Positions 10,061-50,900 of a DNA stretch of 64,000 nucleotides are shown here, piece after piece. Origin of the DNA: Phragmites australis (lineage: Eukaryota; Streptophyta; Magnoliopsida; Poales; Poaceae); the NCBI RefSeq assembly GCF_958298935.1, contig NC_084924.1, positions 26,447,819-26,511,818 on the forward strand, written 5' to 3'. Numbering within the stretch: the first letter of the stretch is position 1; the number at the start of each line of letters is the position of its first letter. Both the position numbers and the translations under genes were made by a program. The notes below the pieces were generated by a model that worked only from the letters and a program-made list of their open reading frames with translations, was not told where the DNA came from and did not search any database.

Positions 10061-12046
10061 TCGTGTTTCACACACCTGTGATTCACGCACCATCATCAAA
10101 CAACCTTCTGCGCGATATCCCTACGTTCCATGTTGCTACGACAATTACCATAATTCGCATCTCATCATTTTATAGTTCATTAGTCATGTTTAACTTACAA
10201 CCCATCCATACCCTTGTGTAAAGATAAGCATTAACTACCCATAAACCACTACTGACAGCTAGGCGAAAAGGAATATATGAAACATGGTACTATAAGTAAA
10301 TGGCATTCAAAATTAATAGCATGCATGTTTGAAATAAAGAACGCATTCGAAAACTGGGATCAAAATATTCAAGGACACTTTCCTCTTCCAACTTGCTGCT
10401 CAGACTCTTCAAAGGTTTGGTCCTGGAGATTCTCGAACTGCTCTTCGACTTCTCTCGAAATAAACCGGAAAAACACACAACAAAACTAACTAAGAACAGT
10501 ACACCAAATAATAGCTAATATCTGAGAAAAAGGTACTAAATAATAGTACACGCTGCTACGAAAGCGGGAGCACGAAAGCCTAAATCGGAGCTAGAACGAG
10601 AAAGATATGCTAAAAACAAGTTTTAGGGTTAATCTGAAAAAGAAAAGGACCTATTTTGAGTAAAACAGAAAGGTTAGGGGCCTTTTTGTAAAAATAGAGG
10701 GACCTAAATGTAATTTGGAAATGTTTAGGGGCTAAATTGTAAAAAGATAGGGCTTATAATTAATTTTAGAAGAGTTTGGGGATTATTTGCAAAATTACTA
10801 ATTACTGGAATTCTTGGAATTATTTTTGTATTAGAAAAGATTGAATTGCTGACTAGGCTGCTAACCGGGCTAGGTTAGATGTGGCATTCCACGTAGGAAG
10901 ATCTGCTAAGGTAGTCGGCTGACTTGGCGTCTGAGGTGGCACTAGGCTGACTGGGATTAAAGGGGACATGTGGCAATTTGTGATTGGTGGGTAAAGGGGT
11001 AAGTTGATGGTCTAATCTCAGTGCTCGGAATTGGATTGGACGGCTGGGGTTTGCTCCCAACGGATTTTGACCAGCGGTGGCAGTCTGGACGCCGGAGGGA
11101 GCACGGGACGGTGGCGATCTTGCTAGAGCTCGATGGAAGATGATGAGGGGTGTACGGGGAACTCGATTGACGGCTCACCTCGGGTGGCGCGGCTTGGGAA
11201 AGAGGTCGGCGCCGGAATAGGTGGCAGAGCTCGTTGGTTCATGTAGGCAACGGAGTTTCAACGGCAAAGAGGTGATGACTAGTGGTGGAAAAGACTCCAC
11301 ACGAGCTTGTGGTGCCGGAGATGCGCTCGGTTGCGGTGGAGAGGCGTCGGATGCAGCGGACGACGAGCTCGGTGCTTCAGCGACAATGGCAGGTGTCGGT
11401 GGCGCGAGTTCTAGGGTTTCAGCGCTCGGATTTTTTGGGGGAAAACAAAGGGGAGGGGTTGATATATATAGGGGCATGCACGTGTGAAGAATCCCGTCGG
11501 TTAGGGGGTCATTGGGATAGGATTTGGAGGCGGCGACAATCGGTGGAGTCCGAGATGGCGACGGCAGCGGTGGCACGAGGAACACGCTGATGCGTGGGCC
11601 CGGTGCGTCAGCAGAAGGGGAGGAGTGGCTGGGCTGGCGCAGAGAACGGGCCGACGCGAAGACTAGCCGGGAGACGGCCCAAGTGGGAGAGCAAGGCTGG
11701 GAGAAAGAGATAGGAGAGGTGCGGGCCAGGCCGAAAGGAACATGCCGAGAAAAAAATAGGAGGAAAAAGAAAAACGGCTTGAGAAGGAATTTCTGGATTT
11801 TCTTTTATGATTTGAATTGATTTCTTCCACAATTTTTAAACGGCGCTTCATGGGGTTTTTCAAAAAGGGAATTTTCCACACAATAAAAACCCTAATTCAT
11901 CTACTCCAACATGAATGCGATAAATAATTCCTAAATCAATTATTTGCTCCATAAATTAATATTTTTCTCTTTTGTTCAAGAGCTAACATAAATATCTATA
12001 ACAAAATTCATTACTATTTAAAAAATGTGATAATTAGGGTGTTACA
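10061..12046 (-). repeat. Tekay 3' LTR, truncated
   Basis: Matches 18831-20838 nearly base for base apart from scattered substitutions and small indels, for example the shared segment TTTCACACACCTG at both low ends. On the minus strand it starts TGTAACACCC at 12046. The distal third, present at 17759-18830 in the other LTR, is absent; sequence changes directly to Sirevirus RT at 10060. Confidence 0.9.
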
Positions 12047-12060
12047 AACCTACCCTCCTT
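12047..12060 (-). other. Polypurine tract of the Tekay element
   Basis: The minus strand reads AAGGAGGGTAGGTT just before the LTR start TGTAACACCC. This defines the 3' LTR. Confidence 0.8.
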
Positions 12061-12082: not shown

Positions 12083-12292
12083 TTATGAAGGATCGGAGAA
12101 GAGCTGCGGAAACTCGGCTTTGACGTCTGATTCTCTTTCCCATGTTGCTTCTTCTTCTGAATGGTGCCTCCACTGCACCTTGCACATATGGAAGCTCTTG
12201 TTTCTGGTGACTCGTTCTGACATCTCTAGAATCTTGACAGGATGCTCCATGTAGGTGAGATCCTCTCCAACTTCAATTTCTTCTAGGGGCAT
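12083..12292 (-). pseudogene. Integrase C-terminal chromodomain-like segment
   Basis: A 69-codon minus frame. After a short acidic lead (EEIEVGEDLTYMEHPVKIL) it has the chromovirus chromodomain-like core, with VQWRHHSEEEATWERESDV followed by an FPQLF end. In this clade such domains are thought to steer integration toward heterochromatin by binding methylated histone H3. The aromatic cage is usually incomplete in this subgroup and I see one clear Trp pair here. Upstream integrase frames are broken. Confidence 0.8.
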
Positions 12293-13472
12293 TTGCTCTT
12301 CAGGAACTCATAGGCATTTCTTCAACTGTGAGACATGGAAAACATCATGGATATCTGCTAGCTGAGGCGGTAACTCCAATTGATACACTACTTCTTGTTT
12401 TTCTAACACCTTAAAAGGTCCGATAAATCTGGGTGCAAGTTTTCCTTTGATTTTAAATCTGCGAAAACCTTTGATCGGTCAAACTCGAAGGTATACGAAA
12501 TCACCTACCTCAAAAGCCAACTCACGACATCGATGATCAGCATAACTCTTCTATCATGATTGAGATATTGTCATATTTTCTCTGATCTGTTGTACTTGTC
12601 TTTCTGCATCTCTTAAAATTTCTGGGCCAAACACTTGGCTTTCACCAGTCTCATCCCAGAACAACGGTGTTCTACATTTTCTTCCGTACATGGCTTCAAA
12701 TGGTGACATCTTCAAACTAGCCTGATAGCTATTATTGTAGGAGAACTCTGCATAAGGAAGACTTTTATCCCAACTAGCCTTGTTTTTCAAAGCACAAGCT
12801 CTCAACATATCCTCCAAAATTTCATTTACTCTCTCGGTTTGACCATCGTTCTATGGATGATATGCCAAAGTGAAGTTTAACTGGGTATCCAATGACTCAT
12901 GTAGTTTTTGCCAAAACCTAGAGGTAAGCTGTCTCCCTCTATCAGACACTATTATCTTAGGTACTCCATGCAAACACACAATTCTGGCAATATACAACTC
13001 AACGAGTCTAGTCATGTGTATGTGGTCTTCATTGGGATGAAATGAGCAACTTTTGTCAAACGATCCACTATTACCCAAATAGAATCATATCTAGATTGAG
13101 TTTTCGGGGCAATCCAACGACAAAATGCGTACTAATTTCCTCCCATTTCCACTCTGGTATCTTCAAAGGTTGAAGCAATCCAGCGGGTCTTTGATGTTTC
13201 ACTTTGACTCTCTAGCATATATCATATATTGCTACATACTCGGCAATTTCTCTCTTCATACCATACCACCAATATCGATCCTTAAGGTCTTGATACATCT
13301 TGGTGCTTCCGGGATGCATACAATATGCAGACTCATGTGCTTCTCGAAGGATAGTTTCCTTGATAGATTTGATATCCGGAACACAGATTCGTTTCTCAAA
13401 CCACACCATTTCATTCTCATCCATGGTAAAACATGTGGCTTTACCCTCCTTAATCTGTTTCTTGATATCCAA
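12293..13472 (-). pseudogene. Ty3 integrase (HHCC and DDE core), fragmented
   Basis: Minus-strand pieces in order: zinc-binding region (13472-13212, with HPGSTKMYQDLKDRYWWYGM), catalytic core (13078-12851, with GVPKIIVSDRGRQLTSRFW containing the second core Asp) and core end (12817-12554, NNSYQASLKMSPFEAMYGRK). The GPY/F region follows in broken frames at 12293-12550. Several stops and frameshifts separate the pieces, so it is inactive. Confidence 0.88.
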
Positions 13473-13490: not shown

Positions 13491-15153
13491 TTACCCTTTA
13501 TGAATTTCTTGTTCCAAAGTAGAATCAACTTCCATTACCACAGCTTCCATGTTGTTTACTAATCCGAGATTGAGCTTTTCGAACTCTTTGCATAACCCGG
13601 GTCGCCTATCTTGCATGGTCATTAGACTGAGATGAGCCTTTCTTCTCAAAGCATCAGCAACTACATTCACCTTTCCGGGATGATAGTTAATTCCCAAGTC
13701 ATAATCCTTGATAAGCTCTAACCATCTACGCTGCTGAGGTTGAGATCTGGCTGAGTGAAAATATACTTTCCGAATAGGTCTCACATCTCTTTCCGATCAA
13801 GTAGTGCCTCCAAATCTTGAGTGCATGAACTATGGCAGCTAACTCCAAATCATGTGTCGGGTATTGTTCCTCATGCTTCCTCAATTGCCTTGATGCATAA
13901 GCTACAATGTGGCCTTCTTGCTTAAGAATACATCCTAATCCTTTTCGAGAGACATCACAATATACGGAGAATGGCTTCTGTGTATCTGGCATAACTAGTA
14001 CTGTCGCAGATGTTAATCTTTTCTTCAACTCTTCAAAACTTGCCTCACAAGCAGGGGTCCATTTAAATGTTTTACCCTTCTCAACTAACCGGGTGATAGG
14101 CTTTGCAATCTTGGAGAAACCTTCTATAAAACGACGGTAGTAACCAGCTAATCCAAGGAAACTACAGATCTCAAAGACATTCTGGGGAGACTTCCAATTC
14201 AAAACATCCTCTACCTTACTTGGATCAACTGCTATTCGTCTAGCGGAGATGACATGACTGTGAAAAGAAATTTGGTCTAGCCAAAATTCACATTTGCTCA
14301 GCTTAGCATACAACTGATTGTCGCTAAGTCTTTGTAGAACCAAACTCAGATGGTCTACATGTTCCTCTTCATCCTTTGAGAAAATTAGGATGTTGTCTAT
14401 AAATACTACCACAAACTGATCCAAATACTCCATGAATACCTTGTTCATCAAATACATGAAGTAGACAGGGGCATTGGTCAATCCGAAAGACATGATCGTA
14501 TACTCATATAATCCATAACGGGTGACGAAAGCTGTCTTAGGAATGTCCAATGCTCGAATCTTTAACTGATGATAACCTGAGCCAAGATCGATCTTGGAGA
14601 ATACACATGCTCCTCTAAGCTGATCAAACAAGTCATCGATCCTGTGAAGAGGGTATTTATTCTTGATGGTTACCTCATTCAAGGCTCGATAATTTATACA
14701 CATCCTTTGGGTATCGCCCTTCTTGGGTACGAATATTACTGGTGCACCCCATGGTGACGAACTAGGTCGGATATAACCTTTGTCTAACAACTCTTGCAAT
14801 TGTTCCTTAAGTTCCGCTAGCTGATTAGCAGCCATTCTACACAGCATTTTAGATATAAGAGCCGTACCAGGTACTAGTTCTATAACAAACCCGATGTCAC
14901 GGTCAAGTGGCATACCTGACAAATCTTCTAGAAAAACATCCAGATACTCGCAAATAACTGGAATGCTCTCGATTGGGGTTCCATCAGCTTGATTGATTAT
15001 TCCTCTGACTGCTGATGGTACTTTTGCAACATATTCCACTTCATCTCCTTCTTTAGAAGTCAGGCGGACAGCTTTTCTCACACAGTCTATAATTCCATTG
15101 AATTTGCCTAACCAATCCATTCCTACAATGACATCTATCCCTTCTGATTCCAA
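13491..15153 (-). pseudogene. Ty3 pol: protease end, RT and RNase H
   Basis: The long minus frame 15153-13726 (475 codons) covers protease C-terminus ([14 protein letters not shown]), RT ([51 protein letters not shown]) and RNase H start ([16 protein letters not shown]). The frame 13784-13491 continues RNase H ([21 protein letters not shown]). The catalytic RT loop reads VFIDNIL, so the second Asp of the DD pair is Asn. The frame break near 13726-13784 sits inside RNase H. Inactive but well preserved. Confidence 0.93.
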
Positions 15154-15176
15154 AATGATAAGGTTTGCCAGAAATT

Positions 15177-16560
15177 CTACCCCCTTATTCTAATACTAAG
15201 GTTAGGGCATATATACCTTGCTTTCATTTCTCCACGTAGGGAGCTAAAAACCATTCTATGCTTCATAAGAGTTATAGGTAGAGTGTATCTTGCCACATAC
15301 TTGGTTGATATAAATGAATATGATACTCTAGAATTAAATAATACTGTAGCGGGGTTGGAGTTGATGAGGAACATACCGATCACGACATCAGTTGCATCTT
15401 GAGCTTCATCAACTGCCACCTGGTTCACACGACCTCTAGCAACATTATGCTTTGCGTGATTCTGGGGTTGACTCCCATTGCGTTCTGTTGCTGGTTTGAT
15501 CCTTGGGCGGGTGGTTGACTTTGACGCTTCTGAGGACACTGATAGGCAAAGTGTCCTTCTACTCCACAATGGAAACAAGGTTTGCCTTTGGTTGAAACTT
15601 GAGTGTTGTTACCGGCGTTGTTGTTCCTTTGAGAGGTCTGATTTGAAGTGCAGGGCACCTGAAAATTGGAGCACGGGTACTGTCCCGCATTCCTGGATGT
15701 GTTCTGATTTGTAGCCTGTGTTATGGTCTGGTTGTATTGCTGACCAGAATGATTCATAGATCCTTACTAAGATGAGTCATAACGGGGCCTGGTGTTGCTG
15801 CTTAACTGACCTGGGCGGTCCATCTTACGCTTGCGCTCAATCATGTTTCTCTTGTGCTCCAAGATGATAGCACGGTCTACAAGGGCATGGAAATTCTTGA
15901 ATTCATGAGAAGCCAGAGACTACTGTAGTCCATCATTCAGGCCTTCTAAGAAATAGTCTTGCTTCTTCTCATCAGTATCCACATCTTCTGGTGCATACCA
16001 GGACAACTGAGTGAAATTAGTGACATGCTCACTCATAGTCATTCCTCCTTGCTTGAGTGATAGGAATTACTTTCTTTTGATTTTGATTGATCCTTGGGGG
16101 ATATGATGAGCGCAGAAAGCAATCTTGAACTCCTGCCAGTTGATGCTGTCAGGTTCTTCATGAGCAGCGACATAGGCATCCCACCAGTCTGTGGTAGGTC
16201 CCATCAGTTAGTGTGAAGCGAACAAAACCTTCTCCCTGGTGTTGCACTAAGCAACTGAAACTTTCTTCTCGATGACCTTGAGCCAGTTATCAGCGTCCAT
16301 TGGTTTAATAGCATAAGAGAAGGTAGGTGGCTTAGTCCTTTGAAACTCTCCGAGCTTGTCACGGGGTTGTTGTGGCGGTGCAGGGGCAACAACGAAGTGA
16401 TTCTGCTTCATTTGGGTCATTATGTGGGCCACTCCTTAAAGAATCTGAGTTTGTACTACCAGAAACTGCTCGAGGGAAGGCTGCGGTGGTGGAGGGGAAT
16501 TGTCATTGCCTTGTCCATCACAAGCATTGCCATTAACGTTGACACGGTTCCTTAGGTTCA
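15177..16560 (-). pseudogene. Tekay gag and protease N-terminus
   Basis: Minus-strand gag pieces: N-terminal part (16432-16247, with PTFSYAIKPMDADNWLK), matrix/capsid body in broken frames (16200-15760), then a Gln/Asn-rich region with a CCHC knuckle at about 15575 (CFHCGVEGHFAYQC). The frame 15578-15177 runs into protease, whose active-site region reads NSRVSYSFIS where DSGASHSFIS is usual, so the catalytic Asp is lost. Confidence 0.88.
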
Positions 16561-17036
16561 CCATCTGACATAGGTCTAGGAAGATAAGGAAACAAGGAAA
16601 TAGACATAACAATAGAAGTAAGAACGGACAGAAAAAGGATAGAGATAGACTGCCAAACTAACTAATATATTAATATCATGATGCATCCATCAAGAAGCTC
16701 TTCACTATACATCACCCACTCAAACAAAGATCCAAATCATTACAAAGCACACCACCAACTCACTCCTAACTAACACGCTATTCTAACGACTCAAAATATC
16801 TAAAAGTAACCTCCTAAATGAACTCATAACTCTACCGACATCTCAGGGTGCTGGTGCCGGACGACGATGGCCTGAAGGCAGCGTGGGGAGCGCGGAGTCT
16901 CTTCCTCAGACTCGGAGTCAGAAGAAGAAGTCTACCAACAATTCGGGTGATGACGCTTCTTGTTCCGTAGTTCACTCTGCGCTAACATATTGTAACTCCT
17001 TAATGGTATGATCCAACTCACGACTCAGCTCCAAAG
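16561..17036 (-). other. Spacer between the upstream ORF and gag
   Basis: No frame I can support. The 66-codon frame at 16972-17172 overlaps the end of the upstream ORF in another phase and looks like a shadow. Confidence 0.4.
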
Positions 17037-17573
17037 CTAGGGCGGTCTGCTCTCCAAGCCTGGTAGTTCGTTCTGCATGACGGGTGTAATGGTGATGTCG
17101 GTGTAGCCACTCACATGCTGGGGGTAATGGTTGAGCTGAGTGAAGATCAGGTCGTTGCTGTGGCGGTGACAAAGGACCAGAAGGGCTTGGTGTGCAACGT
17201 CATGAATTCCAGCCTCGAAAGTAGCTCTCGGTGAGATGGCATGGTGAATGCTCGTCACTTGGTAGGATCCATGCTCTGGTAGTGAGCCGTAGATCACCAC
17301 TTCAACTTTCCACTCAGGAGGAGCATCGACATACTCAATCTTTACTCCTGCATACTCAAGTGCCTTCTCGGATCCCAGATTGTGAAGTATCTCCCAAAGC
17401 TTGGTGGGGAACCATCCTGCACAGCGTCCATCGGAGTGGAAGATACGGCTCCAACGCTGAACACGGGGCGGCTGCTGCGGTCTTGCAAAAGCCATAGCAC
17501 GGGTCGGGGTCAACGATCGAGCATTGAGACGACCACCAGTGTGCTTGCGTGCAGTCTGACAAGTCCGGGCCAT
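17037..17573 (-). CDS. Upstream ORF (ORF0 position) with histone H3-like N-terminus
   Basis: An intact 178-codon frame between the primer-binding site and gag. The ATG is about 185 nt after the LTR. The first residues are MARTCQTARKHTGGR. Aligned with the H3 tail, 11 of the first 13 post-Met positions agree, including the A-R-K around Lys9; K4 is Cys, S10 is His and K14 is Arg. A Pro/Arg-rich segment follows to about residue 40, then an uncharacterised, probably folded part (LWEILHNLGSEKALEYAG and a region rich in His and aromatic residues). I do not recognise the rest. An ORF upstream of gag is known in some plant Ty3 elements (for example RIRE2 orf0), with unknown role. The frame is intact although gag and pol are broken, which may be chance or slower decay. 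Confidence 0.65.
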   Translation of the reverse strand: MARTCQTARKHTGGRLNARSLTPTRAMAFARPQQPPRVQRWSRIFHSDGRCAGWFPTKLWEILHNLGSEKALEYAGVKIEYVDAPPEWKVEVVIYGSLPEHGSYQVTSIHHAISPRATFEAGIHDVAHQALLVLCHRHSNDLIFTQLNHYPQHVSGYTDITITPVMQNELPGLESRPP

Positions 17574-17740
17574 CTATAACATTTTGAAAAGAACAGGGAG
17601 AGTCAGTAATAGGGTTTAAACAGCATAAGCCAAGAAAAGCACAAAAAAGCCAAGGCAGAGTTTTTCGAAAATAGTTTTCTTAACAAAAATAATCCTTAAG
17701 ACTCGACCACTCTAACTAGGCTCGCATCCTACGGTCAACA

Positions 17741-17758
17741 CGGCTCTGGTACCACCTC
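17741..17758 (-). other. Primer-binding site of the Tekay element
   Basis: The minus strand reads GGTGGTACCAGAGCCG just downstream of the LTR end. It differs by one base (C for T) from the Met-tRNA type TGGTATCAGAGC. Confidence 0.75.
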
Positions 17759-20700
17759 TATCACACCTGGTTTCATAAAGGGGAAAAACCAGATACAAAC
17801 CACATGTATGCCAGGATCAAGTTTCATACATGCAACGACTTCATCAGTGTATCACACACAGTGTCATTATTACAATGTTTAACTTAAACAAAATAGATAG
17901 ACCTCAAAGTCTTTAACTAAGGCACACAAACTAAACACAGCGAAGCACCCATCTTCCACAGGCAATTGACCTGGGGAACCAGCAGCCTAGAAATCTTCGT
18001 CCTCATCGATGTAGAAGTCTGGCTCTCCTTCAATATCTCCATTGTCTAAGCAGCGGTTTGATGCACATTTGGATGAAAATAGCAAGTGTGAGTACATAAT
18101 GTACTCCGCAAGTGTGGGAAATATATGACATGCAAGCTTGATTAAAGAAATAGACTATAATAGGTAAATTTCCATCAATGCAAACTATGCTATCGTAAAA
18201 GAGTAATAAAAACACCCTATTTAACTATGTGATTCATCACTAGACGTCCAACTCCTAGGAATATCTCCACATGTTTCCCAACTACCTGAATTCCACATCA
18301 GGGTCCCAAACCAACCAACTTGATACTCATCACAGGTAACCAAGAACCATCCACTTGACATTTACCCTTCACAAGTAACCAACCAAATCAACTAAACCAA
18401 ACCAACTAATTATGTGAGGATCCACGTCTCTCGTAACCATGAGCACGACTGATATATCATATTTTACACTCTACAGAGGTTGTCCAGCTTTCCCCTTGAG
18501 TCATGATTTTCTTGTTGCCGTGTCAGCCAAGCACTTAACACACGCCAGTGGTGTGTCGCTCGGAGAACGCTACAAGGCTGTTACAGAGCATCCTCCCAAC
18601 AAGAATAAGCCTGCTAAGGTTCCACCCCCGTCAAAGTGGAGTCACACCACCCAAAAGACCCCTCATGTGCCTTATAGCTCCGAAAAGAATCACTCTTCTC
18701 TTCCACTAAACCACTAGTGGCTCATTCTATGCTGAGGATACGCTAATTACTAAGCCAGGCCGTACCCATATAAGCCTTGTGGTTGGACGTTACTTCTTGG
18801 GTTTCACACACCTGTAGTCACTACCACCCACCATCGTGTTTCACACACCTGCGATTCACGCACCATCATCAAACAACCTTCTTCTAGATATCCCTACGTT
18901 CCATGTTGCTACGATAATTACTATAATTCCCATCTCATCACTTTATATTTCATTAGTCATGTTTAATTGACAACCCATCCATACCCTTGTGCAAAGCTAA
19001 GCATTAACTACCCATAAACCACTACTGACAGCTAGGAGACAACGAATATATGGAATATGGTACTATAAGTAAATGGGATTCAAAATTAATAGCATGCATG
19101 TTTGAAATAAATAATGTATTCAAAAACTGGGATCAAAATGTTCAAGGACATTTGCCTCTTCCAACTTGCTGCTCGGACTTTTTAAAGGCTTGGTCATGGA
19201 GATTCTCGAACTGCTCTTCGACTGCTCTCAAAACAAACTAAAAACGCACACAACAAAACTAACTAAGAATAGTACACCAAACAATAGCTAACATCTAAGA
19301 AAAATGTACTAAACAATAGTACACACTGCTACAAAAGCGGGAGCGCAAAAGCCTAAATCGTAGCTAGAATGAGAAAGATATGCTAAAAACAAGTTTTAGG
19401 GTTAATCTAAAAAAGAAAATAACCTATTTTGAATAAAAAAGAAAGGTTATGGGCCTTTTTGTAAAAATAGAGGGACCTAAATGTAATTCTAGGGGCTAAA
19501 TTGTAAAAAGAAAGGGGCTTATAATGAATTTCAGAAGAGTTTGGGGCTTATTTGCAAAATTACCAATTTCTGGAATTCTTGGAATTATTTTTGTATTAGA
19601 AAAGATAGAATTGCTGACTGGGCTAGGTTAGCTGAGGTGGCATTCCACGTAGGCAGATCTGCTAAGGTGGCCGGCTGACTTGGCGGCTAAGGTGGCACTG
19701 GGCTGAGTGGGATTAAGGGGGAGATGTGGCAATTTGTAATTGGTGGGTGAAGGGGTAAGTTGATGGTCTAATCTCAGCGCTCGAAATTGGATTGGAAGGC
19801 TGGGGTTTGCTCCTGACGGGTTTCGGTGGTCTTGCCGGTAGAGGGAGCACGGGACGGCGGCGATCTTACCGGTGCTCGATGAAAACGTTGTTGCTGGGTG
19901 CGGGAAGCGAGGCGAGTGGTGGAAGACAATGAGGGGCGTACGGGGAACTCGATTGACGGCTCGCCTCGGGTGGCGCAGCTCGAGAAAGAGGTCAGCGACG
20001 GAAGAGGTGGTGGATCTCCTCGATTCGCATCGGCGACGGAGTTCCAGCGGTGAAGAGGCGACGACAAGCGGTGGAAAAGACTCCACACGAGCTTGCGGTG
20101 CTAGAGATGCACTCGGATGCGGTGGAAAGGTGGCGGATGCAGCGGACGCCGAGCTCGATGCTTTAGCGGCAATGGCGGGCAGGCGGCGGCGCGAGTTCTA
20201 GGGTTTCAACACTCAGATTTTTTAAGAAAACAGAGGGGAGGGGCAGATATATATAGGGGCATGCACGCGTGAAGAATCCTGTCGGTTGGGGGTTGTTGGG
20301 ATAGGATTCAGAGGCGGCGGCAGCCGGTGGAGTCTGAGACGGCGACGACAACGGTGGCACGAGGAACACGCTGACACGTGGGCCCGGTGCGTCAGCGGAA
20401 GGGGAGGAGCGGCTGAGCGGCAGGGCTGGCGCGGAGAATGGGCCGACGCGGAGACTGGCCAGGAGTCGGCCCAAGTGCGAGAGCAAGGCCGGGAGAAAGA
20501 GAGAGGAGAGGCGTGGGCAGGGCCGAAAGTAATGGGCCCAGAAAAAATAGGAGGAAAAAGAAAAATGGCCCGAGAAGGAATTTCTAGATTTTCTTTTATG
20601 ATCTGAATTTATTTCTTCCACAATTTTTAAACGGCGCTTTGCGAGGTTTTTCAAAAAGGAAATTTTCCGCACAATAAAAACCCTAATGCACCTACTTCAA

Positions 20701-20838
20701 CATGAATGCGACAAATAATTCCTAAATCAATTATTTGCTCCATAAATTAATATTTTTCTCTATGGTTTCAAGAGCTAACATAAATACCTCTAACAAAATC
20801 CATTACTATTTCAAAAATATGAAAATTAAGGTGTTCCA
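17759..20838 (-). repeat. Tekay 5' LTR, full length (3080 bp)
   Basis: On the minus strand it starts TGGAACACC (ancestral TGTAACACC) at 20838 and ends GGTGTGATA at 17759, with decayed inverted ends. Its distal part (17759-18060) resembles the start of the solo LTR at 34368, showing the same broad family. The flank is ACTTG (20839-20843); the partner flank is deleted. Long open frames on both strands in the GC-rich part (19628-20672) are compositional noise. Confidence 0.88.
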
Positions 20839-23460: not shown

Positions 23461-24016
23461 GGCAGTTGGATATCATTGTACGTAGATCATGCTGATCGTG
23501 AGGGATGTGATTTCTCAGGTCTTCCTAGTTCTTACACCTATGAATAGGGCAGTTACAGCTTGACCCGTAGGACTACGCTCAATCTTGACTGCCCGAGCTT
23601 CCCATCTGGGATCCCTCGACTTGGGATGCTCACGTCCGTGGCTCCTCGAAGTGGCGCCTTGCCAACTGGGGCGCTCAAAGTTGCTAGGATTGTTTGCTCA
23701 AGCGCTTGGATCTAAGCCGCATCAAGTAGGGTCCTGACCTGATTAACCATAGGGATTAAGGGATTCATTGGATCCAACTCCAGAAGGGATCTTAGAATAA
23801 GATGGGCTCCTTGGATATTAGCATCCGGAGTGCTAAAAACATCACTACCCAGACTTGGTCATGGTCGAGATGATGCTGCTCCACAGTTGCTATCCTAAGG
23901 TAGCTCATTCCTCGTTGCTTGAGCCACTAGCGATGGAGGTGTGCCCACTGGAATTCGTCATTGAAAACGAGGAGGTACTTGACCTCCCGCAGTCCATCGA
24001 TGCAGAGTTGTGTCAG
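23461..24016 (-). other. Gag N-terminal/leader region of the Tat element
   Basis: No intact frame. By position this is the gag N-terminus or untranslated leader; I can make out only short open pieces. Confidence 0.4.
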
Positions 24017-24573
24017 GGACACGTAAAGCTCCAGCTGTAGATGTCTCCAGTGGTATTTCGCTGGCAACGCCGGTACCGTGAGCGACGGTTATCACTGCTG
24101 GATCCTCAGGAATTTTTGTGCCATTGTTTACCATAGCGTTTGGATCTACCACCATTGGGTCAGCAGGTGGGATATTGGCTCCTCTGGCCATAAAGATGAA
24201 TCGATCTGTTTGGTTGCTCTGGCTGGTGCTGGAGTAGTTGTTGCCACCCTTGTCGCTGTTGGTGTATATGCACTGGAGAACATTAGGCTCCTTGGGACAC
24301 GTAATTCTCCAACTGTAGATGTCTCCAGTGGTATTTCGCTAGCAACACCGGTACCATGAGCGACGGATATCGCTGCTGGATCCTAAGGAATTTTCGTGCC
24401 ATTGTTTACCATAGCGTTTGATCTACCACCATTGGGTCAGCATGTGGGATATCAGCTCCTCTGGCCATAAATACGAATCGATCTGTTTGGCTGTTCTGGC
24501 TGATGCTAGAGTCGTCGTTGCCACCCTCGTTGCTGTCGGTGTATATGCACTGGAGAACATTAGGCTCCTTGGG
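24017..24573. repeat. 278-bp direct tandem duplication
   Basis: Units 24017-24294 and 24295-24573 align throughout at a period of 278 bp. Both contain CCATTGTTTACCATAGCG (at 24121 and 24399), both begin GGGACACGTAA-like and both end TTAGGCTCCTTGGGA. On the minus strand each unit encodes a copy of MARGA-x-IP-x-ADPMVVD. Confidence 0.93.
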
Positions 24574-24820
24574 ATCCCACTCGATATGTCCCACCTCGTA
24601 GTATGCGTCCAATGGCGTGTACTCAATAATACCGATGCGAATCAGTTCACCTTGATGGTCCCAGCAAAAGATCATAGTTCTGAGTGTGATCTCTGATCCA
24701 GTTAGGGGCGATTCAAGGGTGATCGTTGTTGACCCGAAGTGGTCATAGAAATCGACGTCAGAGAATCCAGTGCTGATGTGCACTCGAGACATAGTCGATC
24801 CTGAAAAGCAAAAGTCCCTT
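24190..24820 (-). pseudogene. Upstream ORF (ORF0-like) of the Tat element
   Basis: The minus frame (part of 24918-24406) from MSRVHISTGFSDVDFYDHF onward lies between the LTR and gag. Some Tat elements such as RIRE2 have an extra frame there. It is acidic in its second half and runs into the first MARGA repeat. Its product is unknown. The tandem duplication has rearranged its end. Confidence 0.45.
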
Positions 24821-26159: not shown

Positions 26160-26485
26160 CAACCTAGATGGATCAGATCTCAGACTACCTTCAAGATCAA
26201 GCAATCCCTGATGATAATGCGTCAGCAGAAAAGGTCACGCGACAAGCCCGCAGATACTCCCTGGTAGAGGGATGCCTTTACCATAAGGGGATCAACGGCC
26301 TTTTACTGAAATACATCACTCAGGAAGAGGGGAGCACGGTGTTCTCTGATATCTGTTGAGGCATATGTCGTAGCCATGTTTCATACCACATTCTAGTTGG
26401 AAAAGCGTTCCGTCAAGAATTCTATTGCCCCACGACCCTCCAGGATGCTTGCGAGCTGTTGAAACAGTGCAAGTCATGTCAGTAC
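26160..26485 (+). pseudogene. Tat-type integrase, N-terminal part
   Basis: The plus frame 26168-26359 (MDQISDYLQDQ, then RRYSLVEGCLYHKGINGLLL) is the segment before the zinc-binding domain. The HHCC end reads LLKQCKSCQY just before 26485, where a solo LTR is inserted. Confidence 0.85.
26481..26485. repeat. Target-site duplication AGTAC (left)
   Basis: AGTAC at 26481-26485 is repeated at 30094-30098, directly flanking the solo LTR. Confidence 0.85.
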
Positions 26486-34367: not shown

Positions 34368-37357
34368 TGTAACACCCAGTTTTTAAAGGAACAAAACCAG
34401 GCACAATCACATGTATGCTAGGATCAAGTTTTATACATGCATTTACATCATCAGTGTATCATTACATTGCCAATAATACAACGTTATATAACTTATTACA
34501 AAGGACCCAAGGGTCTAAAAGAAAAAACAGTGGAACTAAAAAGAGATCTTCAGCGCCAGCGGGGCCACCATCTTCCATAGAAGTCGATCGGGGGCACACC
34601 AGCCTAGAATAGCAACTCCGGGTCGAAGTTGTCCTCGTCGAAGTTTGCAGCATCAAAGACGACTTTTGAATAGTGGTAGAATGCAAGAAGAGGGACAACG
34701 GGAGTGAGTACAAAATGTACTCCATAAGTGTAGGGAAAAAAATATGCTATGAGGCTCAAGTCAAGGAAAGGATAGACACAGGTTAACTGTACTAAGCAAC
34801 TATGACCTATGACATCAACATCAGGCATCCTATTTACTAGGTGAAGACTCAACTATAAATAAAAGGAATGACTCATCAAATTCCATCTGATTACCAAGAC
34901 TCACCAGGTAATTCCATCACCCCGCTACCCAACCAACCATACCTAACCCAGATCCCAACTAATCCTGAAGAAGTCCAAGCTGCTCTTGTCCGTGAGCATG
35001 GCTGATCGACCAGTTGGTTACTTTGCAGAGTTTGCACAGCTTTCCTCTAGAGTCGTGATTCCCATGTTGCTTCACACTTTTGGGGTGTGGAGTCGGGGTC
35101 TCACTACAAGGCCTTTACAAAACTCCTTCTAACCTGCAGGCACCCACTTAGGTTTCACCACTAACAGACGATTACATCGTTGCAGAAGCCCCCTCTTGTG
35201 TCACTTAAACGTCCAACGGTGCCCATAGAGCTAGAGGGGTGGCTAATTAGTTGGTTAGACTATACCCATATAGGCCTCGTGGTTGTGCAGTTTAACTTGG
35301 TTACAAGCTTCAAGAACCGGTCCTTAGGACCCCACACAGAAACAAACACAAGCCTGCTATTCAGCACCACCTCAAACCAACCATTCTGTTGGGATCCCTA
35401 TACCATGTTGCTACAAAATTACCATTTCCCAAATATTATTGCATAGTTCATTAGTCAATGTTAACAGTTCTCCCAACCCTGACTGCACTAGCATATCTAT
35501 CCATTTTATAACATGATAAAACAACGGCGACAAGGAATATTTATTCAAAACTAATAAACCTTAACATGGGATTTTATATTTAGACAAGCATGCATCGAAG
35601 ATAAAACATCTACATAAATATCCTAAGAATAGGTGCAAGATGCTCAAGGACACTTGCCTTCGACGGAGTGTTGCTCAAAATCCTTGAACGCTTGGTCTTG
35701 GAGATTTTCGGACAGCTTAGCTCCTACTCAACAAACCGGAAAAGCACACAAAATAAAACTCTAAGGACAGTACACCAAACAATACTAAATCCAGTTAAAA
35801 ACCTATAAAAAGATTCTACGCGACGCTACGGACATTAAGGCATGAAAATCGCCAAAATCGGAGCTATGAGCAAAAAGTATTGAGCTTTTAAAGTTCTAGG
35901 GGCTAATCTGGAAGTTTTAGTTGATTTTCAGAGAAATAAGTGATTTGTTTTTTATACTGAAAAATCTAATTATGACGCCATAAGCATTTGCTAATTTATT
36001 TTTTCTATAGGAAAAACTCATGGAATAGGCTCATGAGCCCGTGGACCACGGCCTGGAGGTGGAATTGGTGCACGAGTCCATGGTGGGCCGGTTATGAGTT
36101 TGAAGGGGTATGAGTTTTGGACTGTCGGATAGAGATCCAATGGTCAGAGTTCAAAGGGGCATGGCCGGACTCGACCGGGCGGTGCTGGATGGGGGAGGCG
36201 GCGGCCGGAATCCTCACCGGAGTAGCGCAAGAATGCACTACCGGCCACAGTTCGTGATGGGGAGTGGCTCAAAAGAGAGAGGGTGTCACGGGGGTTCTTT
36301 ACCGCGGCTTCATAACGACGGAGGAGACCCGGGGGCGGCCAGCGATGGAGAAGAAGACCGGTGGCGTTTGGAGCTCGGTGCGGCAGTGGGAGATGCAAAA
36401 TGGAACCTTGGACACCTGCGCACAAGGGAAGGGGACCGGATTGATCAATGGAAGTTTGTTGGCGATGAATTGAGACGGCGGAGCTAACTCATAGGCGTTC
36501 GGGAAGAATTGGCGCTGAGGACGAAATCAAGTGGGAAAAAGAGGGGAAACAAGTGGAATGGGTGAGGAACGTTGCAACGGAGGGGATGGGAGGCTTATAT
36601 ACATGATAGGTGAAGGCAATCGACCGGATTTTGGAGGATTTGGCCGGCGGCCATGATCTTTAATGGTGTCGGTTTTCCGCATTAGAGAGGGGAATTGAAG
36701 GGGGAAATGGCCGGGGATGCTTTATTGTAGGGCAGGAATCGCGGTAGTGGCGATTGATTGGCGAGAAACAGACGGGGGCGGCTCAGATTTGAATCGGCCG
36801 GTGCACGGATTAGGGGCAAATCGAGCTCGGCAGGAGGAGGAAGAAGTGGAGCCACGGCTCGGGCACGGGCGGCTCGGCAGCTCGGCTCCAGCCAGGCCCA
36901 CTTGGTAGCGAGAGAGAAGGTAGAGGGGTGGCTCGGGCAAACGGTGCAGGCCGGCTCAGCCGGGCGCGTGGCAAAGCTGGCCTGAGGCCCAGCGAGAGAG
37001 AGGGGGCGGCCCAAGCAAGAAAAAGAAAAAGGGAAAGGGGAAGGAAGAAGGAAATGGGACGGAAGAAGGAGAATCGGCCCAGGAGCATTTTTCCATTTTA
37101 AAAATCCATTTTCTATTTAGATTTTGAACAAATTTCAAATGAGGTTGAACGAGCGACATCTAGCGAAATTTTGCAAACTTTTTCCACGCATAAAAACCTA
37201 TTGCAACTAGGACGGCATGAATGCATCAACACAAATATAACCTATGGCCAAATTAAATTTAGAAATTAATTTCTCTCTATAGAACAAAATTGCAACTCCT
37301 ATTTAAATTGTAGCAAAATTTTAAACTATTCAAAAATTTGAAATTTAGGGTGTTACA
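34368..37357 (-). repeat. Solo LTR (2990 bp) of the Tekay family, minus orientation
   Basis: Ends TGTAACACCC...GGTGTTACA are perfect short inverted repeats, flanked by CGGTG duplications. Its low end clearly resembles 17759-17870 (shared ACATGTATGC-AGGATCAAGTTT segment and ATCAGTGTATCA), so it is the same lineage as the Tekay element and in the same orientation. No internal domain is present. Intact termini and target duplication make it younger than most neighbours. Confidence 0.92.
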
Positions 37358-44900: not shown

Positions 44901-47900
44901 CTCAACATTGCGTGACTATGATGACAGAGACATGTTCTGCATTTTTCTTTTACCTGGGAATAACGTGAATAGAAAGGTAGTTACTCTTGCTTGGTTATCG
45001 TTTTGTCTTAATATTACAAGTAAACAAATTATGTCAGGGGATAACATCTGATGGTTAAAAATGATTGTATTTTCCTTGAGGAAATATCAGTTGGTAAAAG
45101 ATTGTACCAAGCTGGATGCAAGTTTTACCTTTTTAATCATAAATAGTTCTAAATTTCTAGTGCTATCGATTTATGTTGTTTCTCAGAAATATTGATATCT
45201 TTTTAATCTTTATTTGAAATCTTTTGTTTCTTGGCCACTATTGAAGCTATAATGACTCTATTCTATTGTTGTATCAATATTGATTCAAGCTGAAATAAAA
45301 TTAGGTTGTCACCCTTTTTTTTATTCATAAATTTTCCTTTTAGGGTGATTTATCTCACTTGAGTAATCTGATAGGTCTTCAAAAAGGCAGTTGTTTTTAT
45401 CGTTGATACAAGTGGAAGCATGCAACGAAAGCCTCTTGAGAATGTTAAGAATTTCATGTCCACTGCTCTCGCTGATCTTGTGCAAGGAGATTACTTCAAC
45501 ATAATAACATTTAATGATGAGCTTCACTCGTTCTCATCATGTTTGGAGAAAGTAAATGAAAAAACTATAGAAAATGCTATCGAATGGATGAACTTAAATT
45601 TTGTCGCACAGAGTGGCACTGATATCATGCATCCTTTGAGTGAGGTATGTTATTCAGAAGATTGTATCAGTTGTCATTTGTTTTGTGATTAATGTCACCA
45701 TTGTTACTCATGTTTCCCCAATTTTTCTGGGTATAAGGCAATGGCTTTGCTGTCAAACTCTCATGATGCTCTTCCACAAATCTATCTTGTTACCGATGGG
45801 TCAGTTGATGATGAACGGAATATCTGCCATACTGTGAAAACTCAGCTCATGAGTAGAGGATCCAAGTCTCCTCGGATTTCTTCTTTTGGACTAGGTAATA
45901 TCTCATAGAATATCTGGTTATGTATAGGGATGCAAGTTTTGTATATTTTGGGTCATTGGGTCGACCCGAAACTCAAAAAAATGAACCAAAGGTATTAGGC
46001 AGGTCTATGTGTGATTAGCTATAATTAGCTCTTACTATGTATACTTGATTGTATTCCTTGTATCCCTAGCCATATTGGCTATATATATGAAGGTCACCCC
46101 CCCATATTGGGTGTGAGGTGTGTCTCTACATGGTATCAGACGATTAGATCCTATTCTCCCGGTCTTTCCCCCCCTCCACCTCGCGACTCCGTGATCGTGC
46201 GACTTCCCCCCCACGCGCGAGACTTCCTCTCGCCCGTCCTCCCTCTCTCCTCTCCCATGGACACCTCGGCCTCCTCCTCCTCGGCCACCAGTGCCGGCAC
46301 CCTGCCCCCGACAGGCACTCCCCCCATGCCTGCCATGAGCGCCGGCGCTGCTGCCCCGATCGTGGCTCACAACTACGCCACAGTCAATGTGAAGTTCCAC
46401 ATCCCTTTTACGCTGGACCTTCAATCCAACTACTCCAAGTGGGCGTTCTTCTTCAAGTCGCTGTGCGGCAAGTTCGGCCTTCGCTCGCACATCGACGGCT
46501 CTGCTCCCCCTCGACCTGATGATCCTCAGTGGGATGCCGCGGAGTGCTGCGTCCGGGGCTGGATCTCCGGCTCCGTCGACGACTCCGTCCTCGACCTCGC
46601 CATGGACAGTGCCGATCCAACCGCTCGTGATCTGTGAGTGGCCAATCGGGAGCTGCGCGCCATCTTCCTCCTCAACGAGTTTCACTCCATGGTGCAAGGT
46701 GATAGCACCATATCGGCGTACTGCCAGCGGCTGAAGATCAAGGCCGCCGCTCTTCGCGACGTCGGCCATCCTGTCCAGGACTCGCAGCTCGTCCTCGCCC
46801 TTCTGCGTGGCCTCAATCCTCGCTTCTCCAACACCCCCGACGACATCGCCAACTCCGCTGTACTTCCCACATTCGCCAGAGCCCATGACATGCTGGCACT
46901 AAAGGAGCTTCGTCTCGCCAACGACGAAAAGACGGTTGCCAGCACCGCCCTCCTCGCCACCGCCGGCTCTGGCTGCACCAGCCCGGGCGGGTGCCGTGCT
47001 CTCGCTGCCACAGCCAACTCTGGAGGTCCACACAACCCACACGTGACCGGCTACGGCAGCAACAAGGGCGGCGGCGGTGGCAACAGCAGTGGCAGCAAGG
47101 GCAAGGGCAAGGGCCGGCGTGGCTGGAACAGCGGCTCTGCGCAGTAGCGCAGCGGCGCTGGCCAGACTAATCAATACCGACCCATGGGCCCCTGGATTTG
47201 CTACAATCCATGGGCGCCACAGGGCCCTCCTTCGGCTCAGCAGGGCGGCTGGCGCCCAGGCGTGCTTGGCGCCCCTCCTCCTCAGGCTCACACGGCCTTC
47301 GCGCCTACGCAGCCCCCGACGACATTTGCGCCGCTCCACGTCTCCCAACAAGCTCCCATGTGGAACCAGGATGGTCTTGTCGCTGCACTCAATCAGATGC
47401 ATCTCCAGGGCCAGCATCCTTGGGTCCTGGATTCCGGCGCCTCCTCCCACATGAGCTCCTCGGATGGTATACTCCTCTCTCGCCATCCTCCTCCTCACTC
47501 TTCCATTACAGTTGGCAATGGTGCAAATCTTCCTATTTCATGTCGTGGCGAGTCTGTTCTTCATACACCAGAGTCCAATTTTCATCTAAATAATGTCTTA
47601 GTTGTCCCATCTCTAGTCTGCAATCTGCTATCTATCCGTCAATTTACTAGGGACAACAACTGCTCTATAGAATTTGACGCTCTTGGTTTTTCTGTCAAGG
47701 ATATCCCGACCCGACGCGTGATGCTTCGCTGCAATAGTGCTGGTGATCTTTACACCTTCCCTGCTGCGTCTTCCGCTCCACACGCCAGCATTGCCATCTC
47801 CACCGACCTCTGGCATCACCGTCTTGGTCATCCCAGCTCCGCCACCATTGACATTCTTCGTCGTAATACGTCCATCAGCTGTAATAAAATAGAGCAATTG

Positions 47901-50900
47901 CTATGTCATTCTTGTCAGCTTGGCAAACATGTGCGCCTTCCTTTTTCAGATTCCAGTTCATATACTTCCATGCCTTTTGAACTTGTTCACTGTGATGTAT
48001 GGACATCCCCGGTTGCCAGTGTATCCGGGTATCAATACTATCTCGTTTTACTTGATGATTTTACTCATTTCTGTTGGACCCTTCCCCTCACTCGCAAATC
48101 TGAAGTCTCCACACATATTGCAAATTTTTGCAATTATGTCCACACTCAATTCAGCCTTGCCATCAAAGCTGTCCAAGCCGACAACGGCACTGAGTTCGTA
48201 AACAATACCCTCCATACTCTCTTTGCTTCCCGTGGTATTCATTTACGCCTCTCGTGTCCATACACCTCCCCACAAAATGGCAAGGCTGAACGCCTTCTTC
48301 GCACATTGAACAACATCAGCCGCACGATGCTCCTACATGCACACATGCCTGCTCAGTACTGGGCTGAGGCGCTCGCCACAGCCACATACCTTCTGAACAG
48401 GCGTCCCTGCTCTGCTGTTCGCCACAGCATTCCATACACTCTCCTCCACAACAAATCTCCCGAGTACTCCCACTTACGTGTCTTTGGGTGTCTCTGTTAT
48501 CCGAACTTGACCGCCACGGCTCGCCACAAACTCTCCCCTCGCTCCACAGCTTGTGTTTTTCTCGGCTATCCCTCTTCCCACAAGGGGTACCGCTGCCTCG
48601 ACATGGCCACTAAGCGCGTCATCATCTCTCGCCATGTGGTCTTCGATGAGACTTGTTTTCCCTTCGGGCTTTACCCCTCCAGGTCCTCGCCAAGCGACCT
48701 GGATTTTTTGCTTGCAGGAACTACAGTGCCGGTGCGTCCTGCATCTCTGCCCTCTGCTGCTGGGCAGTCACACCAAGGTTTCATTGAGGAGCTGACCGAC
48801 GACCCCGCGATCTTGTTTCACGGCCCCGCGGCTGCTCCTCCAGCGGCTGCCCCGGCTCCAGCTGCTCCTCCAGCGGCTGCTCCTCCAGTGGCTGCCCCGG
48901 CTCCAGCTGCTGTTCACGCCGCTCCACCAGCTCGGGACATCCGGCTTGTCTACAGCCGGCGTCCCCGGGCGCATGACGGGTCCTCTACAGCACCAGGACC
49001 GGCTCCTGCACCTGTTCAGCAGCCTCCTGCCCCTGTACAGCAGGAACGACGCATCACGCGGACCCAGTCCGGGGCCATACCGGTTATGCGGTATGTGGGG
49101 CTCTCTGCGACAACCACTCCGTCTCCACTTCCCGGCAACTACCGTAGCGGCTTGGCTGATCCAAACTGGCGTGCGGCCATGGCTGAGGAGTACAAGGCGC
49201 TCATCGACAACGGGACATGGCGCCTCGTGCCCCGGCCACCCGGCGCCAACGTGGTCACCGGCAAGTGGATATTCAAGCACAAGTACCACTCCGACGGTAC
49301 CCTCGCCCGCCACAAGGCTCGCTGGGTGGTTCGTGGCTTCTCCCAGCGCCACGGGATCGACTACGATGAGACATTCAGCCCGGTGGTCAAACCAGCAACC
49401 ATCCGGGCTGTCCTCAGCATGGCTGCCTCACGCGCCTGGCCTATTCATCAGCTAGACGTCAAGAACGCCTTTCTCCATGGACATCTGGAGGAGACCGTCT
49501 ACTGCCAGCAGCCCCCAGGCTTCGTCGACCCTGTTTTTCCTGATCATGTGTGTCTGTTGCAGCGCTCCCTCTACGGCCTGAAGTAGGCTCCCCGAGCCTG
49601 GTACCAGCGTTTTGCGACATACATTCGCCAGCTCGGCTTCGTCGCCTCGACTTCCGACACCTCCCTCTTTGTCTACAAAGACGGGACCAGTATCGCCTAC
49701 CTGCTTCTGTACGTCGACGACATCGTCCTTACTGCGTCCTCGACGGCATTTCTACAGCAGATCATTGGGCGCCTCCACTCTGAGTTTGCCATGACTGACC
49801 TGGGCGCACTCCATCACTTCCTCGGCATCTCCGTCACTCGCTCCGCCGATGGCTTGTTCTTATCACAGCGACAGTACGCCGTTGAGCTCCTTCAACGCGC
49901 CGGCATGGCTGAGTGTCACTCTACGACGACACCTGTTGACACTCATGCCAAGCTATCTGCCACCGCCGGTGCCCCTGTTGCTGATCCGTCCGCGTACCGG
50001 AGCCTTGCTGGCGCGCTCCAGTACCTCACGCTGACTCGTCCTGACCTGGCATACGCCGTCCAACAGGTGTGCCTCTTCATGCATGATCCCCCCGTGAGCC
50101 GCACCTCTCGATGATCAAGCGGATTCTACGCTACCTGAAGGGCACTCTCTCCTCCGGCCTCCACATTGGTGTCGGCCCTGTTCAGTCACTGGTCGCCTAC
50201 TCCGATGCCGACTGGGCTGGCTGCCCAGATTCTCGGCGCTCCACCTCTGGCTATTGTGTCTACCTCGGCGACAATCTGATTTCTTGGTCCTCCAAGCGTT
50301 AGACCATGGTCTCCCGCTCTAGTGCAGAAGCAGAGTACCGTGCTGTTGCTCATGTGGTGGCCGAGTGCTGCTGGCTGCGCCAGCTCCTGCAGGAGCTCCA
50401 CGTCTCCATTGCTTCGGCGACAGTTGTCTACTGCGACAATGTCAGCGCTGTCTACATGACAACCAACCCCGTTCATCATCGTCGCACGAAGCACATTGAG
50501 ATTGATATTCACTTCGTCCGTGAGAAGGTCGCCTTGGGACAAGTTCGGGTTCTTCATATGCCGTCCTCCCACCAGTTCGCAGACATCATGACCAAGGGCC
50601 TTCCTGTACAGCTATTTACTGAATTCAGGTCCAGTCTATGCGTCCGGGATCCTCCCGCTTAGACTGCGGGCGGGTATTAGGCAGGTCTATGTGTGATTAG
50701 CTATAATTAGCTCTTACTATGTATACTTGATTGTATTCCTTGTATCCCCAGCCATATTGGCTATATATATGAAAAGGTTAACTCCCACCTAATTAAGTTA
50801 AGGAAAAAATGAACTAAGTAGTGGCCCAAAACTACCCACTGGGTACCCACTTGCACCCCTAGTTATGTATCACTCAACTGATCAAGCTAAGCCATGTGCT

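Follow-up and report, generated by a model that had tools for sequence, protein, structure and literature searches.

An old Tekay-clade chromovirus of Phragmites australis carries an ORF0 with a histone H3-like tail and a predicted dsRBD-fold domain, a possible counter-silencing factor

Here we describe a retrotransposon in a stretch of 64,000 nucleotides of the Phragmites australis genome (contig NC_084924.1, positions 26,447,819 to 26,511,818; hereafter the window, with positions counted from its first letter), the additional open reading frame of which, ORF0 (5'aORF), encodes a protein that starts like the tail of histone H3. The element lies on the minus strand, and by its domain order, chromodomain motifs, ORF0 position and the length of its long terminal repeats (LTRs) it fits a Tekay-clade (Retrosat2-like) chromovirus. 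ORF0 (17573-17037, minus strand) is open for 178 codons, starts MARTCQTARKHTGGR (MARTCQTARKHTGGRLNARSL) and begins 169 nt downstream of the primer binding site (PBS); homologues were found by protein search, and frame 1 of the same segment on the plus strand was interrupted by stops. The layout of LTR, PBS and gag bore out the original prediction of a retrotransposon frame between PBS and gag, and the presence of both chromodomain motifs fits the Tekay-type element that it proposed. A two-codon upstream frame (ATG TTA TAG, minus strand 17574-17582) ends directly at the ORF0 ATG, and two more ATGs occur earlier within the 183-nt stretch upstream of ORF0 (17756-17574, minus strand).

The H3-like start comprises Met and the 13 residues that follow it (17532-17573, minus strand), 11 of which were identical to residues 1-13 of H3 (ARTKQTARKSTGG). 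Lys4 is replaced by Cys, Ser10 by His and Lys14 by Arg, and the TARK at Lys9 is unchanged, so that residue comparison confirmed both the count and the replacements claimed at the outset. When every ATG start of the window, 2543 over the two strands, was ranked by its match to H3, ORF0 was the best (11/13), followed by single starts with 7/13 and 5/13, and the remaining 2540 reached 4 or fewer. The analytic probability of at least 11 matches in 13 was 7.1e-13 per start, and in shuffles of the 20-residue tail that kept its composition 11/13 was reached in 0 of 300,000, as expected from the earlier claim that the match was too close for chance. The H3 match is therefore confirmed as real. A sequence search of PDB chains returned histone H3 chains in most of the best 60 rows listed, at E values of 0.34 or worse, which are weak because the H3-like stretch is so short. 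Pfam gave no histone family for the ORF0 protein, the model fold of which differs from the histone fold, and the H3-like peptide sits at a probably exposed N-terminus, predicted without secondary structure and with a low predicted local distance difference test score. Elsewhere in the window, at 26477 (minus strand), a second ATG start (MTCTVSTARKHPGGSWGNRILDGT) similar to that of ORF0 matches H3 at 7/13 and is followed by no convincing ORF0 core; about 0.004 starts of this kind would be expected by chance among the 2543.

At its 3' end the frame is not intact, contrary to the original prediction. Two relatives, P0001 and P0004, run on as ...EGTxRLGEQxALALELS, and the corresponding stretch is present in the window, in a different frame, from 17076 downwards (16972-17076, minus strand, ...RTTRLGEQTALALELSRELDHTIKELQYVSAE), with 77% identity over 22 residues to P0001 and 94% over 18 to P0004 by tblastn and translation. 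The last 13 residues of ORF0 are accordingly frameshift sequence.

Protein searches with an E-value limit of 10 returned 164 proteins, of which 120 were listed, all from ENA or JGI contigs and at E 1.5e-11 or better, several matching chiefly in a coiled-coil end. Relatives were sorted by start and core into four groups. Group A holds the window ORF, P0001 (MARTRKTARKSTNG), P0002 (MARTRKTARTNV) and the fragments P0003 and P0004; the starts of two close relatives read MARTRKTARKST and MARTRKTARTN. Group B holds P0035 (MARCKITARNQV), P0005 (MARYKTTTCKQV) and P0028 (MSTTRKQV), together with P0034, P0039 and P0049, the predicted starts of which lie later; the starts MARCKITAR and MARYKTTTCK belong to the deeply diverged sister group of A. 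Group C, with starts of the MAHLPAQDVVIELC type, was the most numerous among the proteins listed, and group D starts MAYWNPSIYYQ or similarly. No H3-like start was present among the group C and D starts seen.

The 62 aligned rows yielded 57 core sequences of at least 60 residues, 28 of which went into a tree: the 16 from groups A, B and D without exception, and 12 hand-picked from the 41 of group C. In this tree a branch (100/99) set groups A and B apart from the rest, and the distance between the two was about 1.7 changes per site. Over this distance the linker behind the tail (residues 15-37, 17463-17531, minus strand), which has no predicted strand or helix, cannot be aligned between the groups, scoring no better than shuffled sequence. 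The first 9 residues of the window ORF and P0001 matched those of P0035 and P0005 at 4-5/9, a figure that leaves out P0028 (later start; 1-3/9 ungapped) and P0002 (5/9 with P0035, 3/9 with P0005), and 36-38 of 86-89 residues were identical in the folded core. Between A and B the tail is thus kept about equally to the core, not better, and far better than the linker. Shuffling reproduced the match to H3 in 0 of 300,000 trials for P0001 (10/13), 233 for P0002 (6/13), 42 for P0035 of group B (6/9, positions 1-9) and 335 for P0005 (5/9).

Thr6-Ala7-Arg8 was retained in four of the six starts, and some rows match H3 beyond the Lys9 site, at Thr11, Gly12, Gly13, Pro16 and Leu20. Thr3 (in all three starts), Ser10 (P0001) and Gly12 (window) are kept in A and not in B. 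At position 4 the window ORF has Cys, P0001 and P0002 have Arg, and P0035 and P0005 have Lys; the replacement of Lys4 that had been stressed earlier holds in group A, but the Cys looks private to the window copy and Lys is present in group B. Since A and B each keep different H3 residues, we infer from these sequences that the start of their common ancestor resembled H3 more completely. Against such an ancestor stand the loss of Lys9 in two of the six known starts and the agreement of P0002 with P0005 at no more than 3/9.

Behind the tail, two AlphaFold models predicted a fold nearest to plant double-stranded RNA (dsRNA)-binding domains (dsRBDs; DRB7.2, HYL1, DCL4), a module outside the account of the original prediction. 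The predicted core (residues 53-139, 17157-17417, minus strand) has the order alpha-beta-beta-beta-alpha, as in dsRBD/DRBM, and in the model of P0009, from group C, it is followed by a C-terminal helix that is very long (86-164) and predicted with confidence. The lysines at the start of helix 2 of dsRBDs form the KKxAK motif. In columns 119, 120 and 123, matched to this motif by eye, Lys or Arg occurred in 0/60, 0/58 and 0/58 rows, respectively. Pfam reported no dsRBD for the window protein, and for the 62 members no dsRBD family was among the 25 of 54 families listed. Plant dsRBDs of DRB and DCL proteins (DRB7.2, HYL1, DRB4, DCL4) are the best structural matches by predicted fold, but identity is 11-19%, the KKxAK lysines are lacking in ORF0 and an H3-like tail is added. 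Because the RNA-contacting lysines are absent, the modelled dsRBD-fold domain is more likely to bind proteins than dsRNA; the domain, dsRBD-like in both models, points to the small-RNA machinery.

The remainder of the element, all on the minus strand, is degenerate. The 5' LTR (17759-20838) is ~3.08 kb long, starts TGGAACACC and ends GGTGTGATA, its termini having been picked by eye; the PBS TGGTACCAGAGC (17743-17754) is of the initiator-tRNA-Met type, one base off the tRNA-Met PBS. A gag remnant (15425-16612) has stops in all three frames and a CCHC zinc knuckle in frame 15757-15425. It is followed by remnants of protease, reverse transcriptase and RNase H (13726-15578; Pfam PF08284, PF00078, PF17919, PF17917) and of integrase (12554-13472), in which 13472-12851 matched PF17921 and, below the cut-off, PF00665, and 12817-12554, without a Pfam match, was assigned by position. 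A purine-rich tract, AAGGAGGGTAGGTT (12047-12060), adjoins the 3' LTR (10061-12046), which starts TGTAACACCC and is truncated at 10061. Segment 18834-20839 of the 5' LTR aligned with 10061-12047 of the 3' LTR at 89.1% identity (Kimura two-parameter distance 0.120; 1955 ungapped and 83 gap columns), corresponding to ~4.6 million years at 1.3e-8 substitutions per site per year. With this divergence, gag and pol interrupted by stops and frameshifts, and ORF0 frameshifted near its end, the copy is old and dead. The order protease, reverse transcriptase, RNase H, integrase and chromodomain found by Pfam is that of Tekay-clade chromoviruses, and the integrase chromodomain (12083-12292; PF00385, E 1.8e-6) carries EExTWExE and [KR]x[LT]Rx[KR], described as Tekay-clade chromodomain motifs in PMC3350952. 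A 124-bp piece at 34372-34495, with 78% identity to the 3' end of the 5' LTR in the same orientation, is a remnant of a related element with no recognisable ORF0 beside it. The window further contains two adjoining direct repeats at 24016-24574 (127 and 158 bp, spacing 277-278 bp, 91-92% identity) and, at 46107-49586 (plus strand), long open frames resembling, by eye, copia gag, integrase and reverse transcriptase.

The reading that we favour, at a probability of about 0.42, is that ORF0 would be a nuclear counter-silencing factor in which an H3K9-like tail is joined to a DRB-like docking domain. By this account the tail would either descend from the first ~13-20 residues of H3 or have been selected for likeness to them, and in an intact copy removal of Met would expose A-R-T-x-x-T-A-R-K as a nuclear H3K9-like peptide. 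According to PMC7617993, the plant enzymes that deposit H3K9 methylation are SUVH4-6, and CMT3 and CMT2 are its readers; SHH1 recognises the combination of methylated K9 and unmethylated K4 and is believed to recruit Pol IV. SUVH-type enzymes might methylate the tail, or the tail might occupy readers of H3K9me (CMT2/3, SHH1), and the dsRBD-like domain might dock on DRB or Dicer-like proteins, by which ORF0 would blunt RNA-directed silencing of the element; a start such as A-R-T-R-K-T-A-R-K-S, with a Lys9-like site and no lysine at position 4, together with a DRB-like module, could tie up the chromatin and small-RNA sides. Several observations weigh against this: Lys9 is lost in two of the six starts, which are all the H3-like starts found, the tails of P0002 and P0005 agree at only 3/9, and groups C and D, two of the four ORF0 groups found, have no H3-like start, so that the start is the mark of a single branch rather than of such frames in general. 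The coincidence or single capture envisaged by the original prediction, should the match sit in this copy only, is countered by its recurrence in relatives, but its lack in half of the groups stands on the other side.

An alternative that we regard as possible, if not probable, is the ancient capture of an H3 coding fragment at the ORF0 start, which would since have been retained simply as a basic N-terminus of general use, serving nuclear import, nucleic-acid contact or a good translation start, with no H3 mimicry. The scattered matches past Lys9 are what descent would leave, Lys9 is lost in two of the six starts, and grass 5'aORF proteins are predicted to be nuclear in PMC11728184; a mere basic stretch, however, hardly explains why the tail is recognisable between A and B and the linker is not, or why Thr6-Ala7-Arg8 persists. 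Resemblance of a basic N-terminus to H3 by chance or convergence, with no shared history, is very improbable: the motif is short and another ATG of the window, to all appearance unrelated, scores 7/13, but P was 7e-13, shuffles gave 0/300,000 and the sister group shows the motif in the same register.

The two other alternatives concern what the protein does. A role of ORF0 in particles or in nucleic-acid binding, with the basic tail and a C-terminal helix aiding RNA packaging or dimerisation and the dsRBD-like fold touching RNA in a non-standard way, is unlikely; the place of ORF0 directly upstream of gag, the predicted fold and the long helix of the group C model would suit such a role, but no row with a residue at the three KKxAK columns has Lys or Arg there, and gag has a CCHC knuckle of its own. 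Still less likely is a targeting role, in which the tail guides the integration complex through being bound by the chromodomain of the element's integrase or by readers of heterochromatin. The same element does encode a chromodomain with Tekay motifs, but ORF0 lies outside pol, this chromodomain shows His-His at the position that, judged by eye, the third aromatic of the cage should take, and binding of the tail to it is less likely because Tekay-type chromodomains are described as lacking the aromatic cage (PMC6317226; PMC3350952).

The counter-silencing reading has precedents in part. In H3 mimics of pathogens, influenza NS1 among them, a short H3-tail-like peptide lies at a protein end and is proposed to engage H3-binding machinery; ORF0 shares such a peptide but is encoded by a plant retrotransposon and has it at the N-terminus, as in H3. 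We know of no H3-like tail in VANC of VANDAL, a sequence-specific protein of a DNA transposon, unlike ORF0. VANC proteins are nevertheless transposon-encoded and counteract epigenetic silencing, as proposed here for ORF0 (PMC10398659; PMC11728184). The extra frame itself is already known: Gao et al. 2012 (PMC3485330) report ORF0 upstream of gag in Retrosat2, RIRE3 and RIRE8 and in maize, sorghum and Brachypodium homologues, did not find it outside grasses, and proposed metabolic-enzyme functions from models. Those elements resemble the present one in layout and LTRs, by the extra frame before gag-pol, ~3 kb LTRs with TGTCACACCC-type ends and fast divergence, but the main text of PMC3485330 does not contain the word histone. 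In PMC11728184, 5'aORF proteins of the same clade from maize and sorghum have a weak Foldseek match to a DRBM protein (TM 0.35-0.37), which agrees with our models, and Tekay 5'aORFs other than that of sunflower, which is largely disordered and shares no amino-acid similarity with grass aORFs, are predicted to be nuclear; again the word histone is absent from the main text, and section 2.5 is silent on the missing RNA-contact lysines. Among the matches listed from the open-access literature, outside which most subscription papers fall, no title or abstract opening reported an H3-like start of a retrotransposon frame. The H3-like tail may be what is new here, ORF0 itself and the DRBM-like fold of the maize and sorghum copies being already known.

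No convincing function has so far been assigned to the ORF0 proteins of abundant grass retrotransposons, and an H3-like tail combined with a DRB-like fold offers one that is concrete and open to test: such elements may use ORF0 to interfere with RNA-directed silencing, and so with their own silencing. A bolder version, which we consider doubtful, is a two-headed protein of a retrotransposon lineage, probably of grasses, in which the H3K9-like tail, lacking a position-4 lysine in group A, would occupy or divert writers or readers of H3K9 methylation and the DRB-like domain would engage the Dicer/DRB machinery, so that both arms of the loop of small interfering RNA, H3K9 and DNA methylation would be hit at once. 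If true, a plant transposon would encode a histone mimic with which it attacks the very H3K9 methylation loop that silences it.
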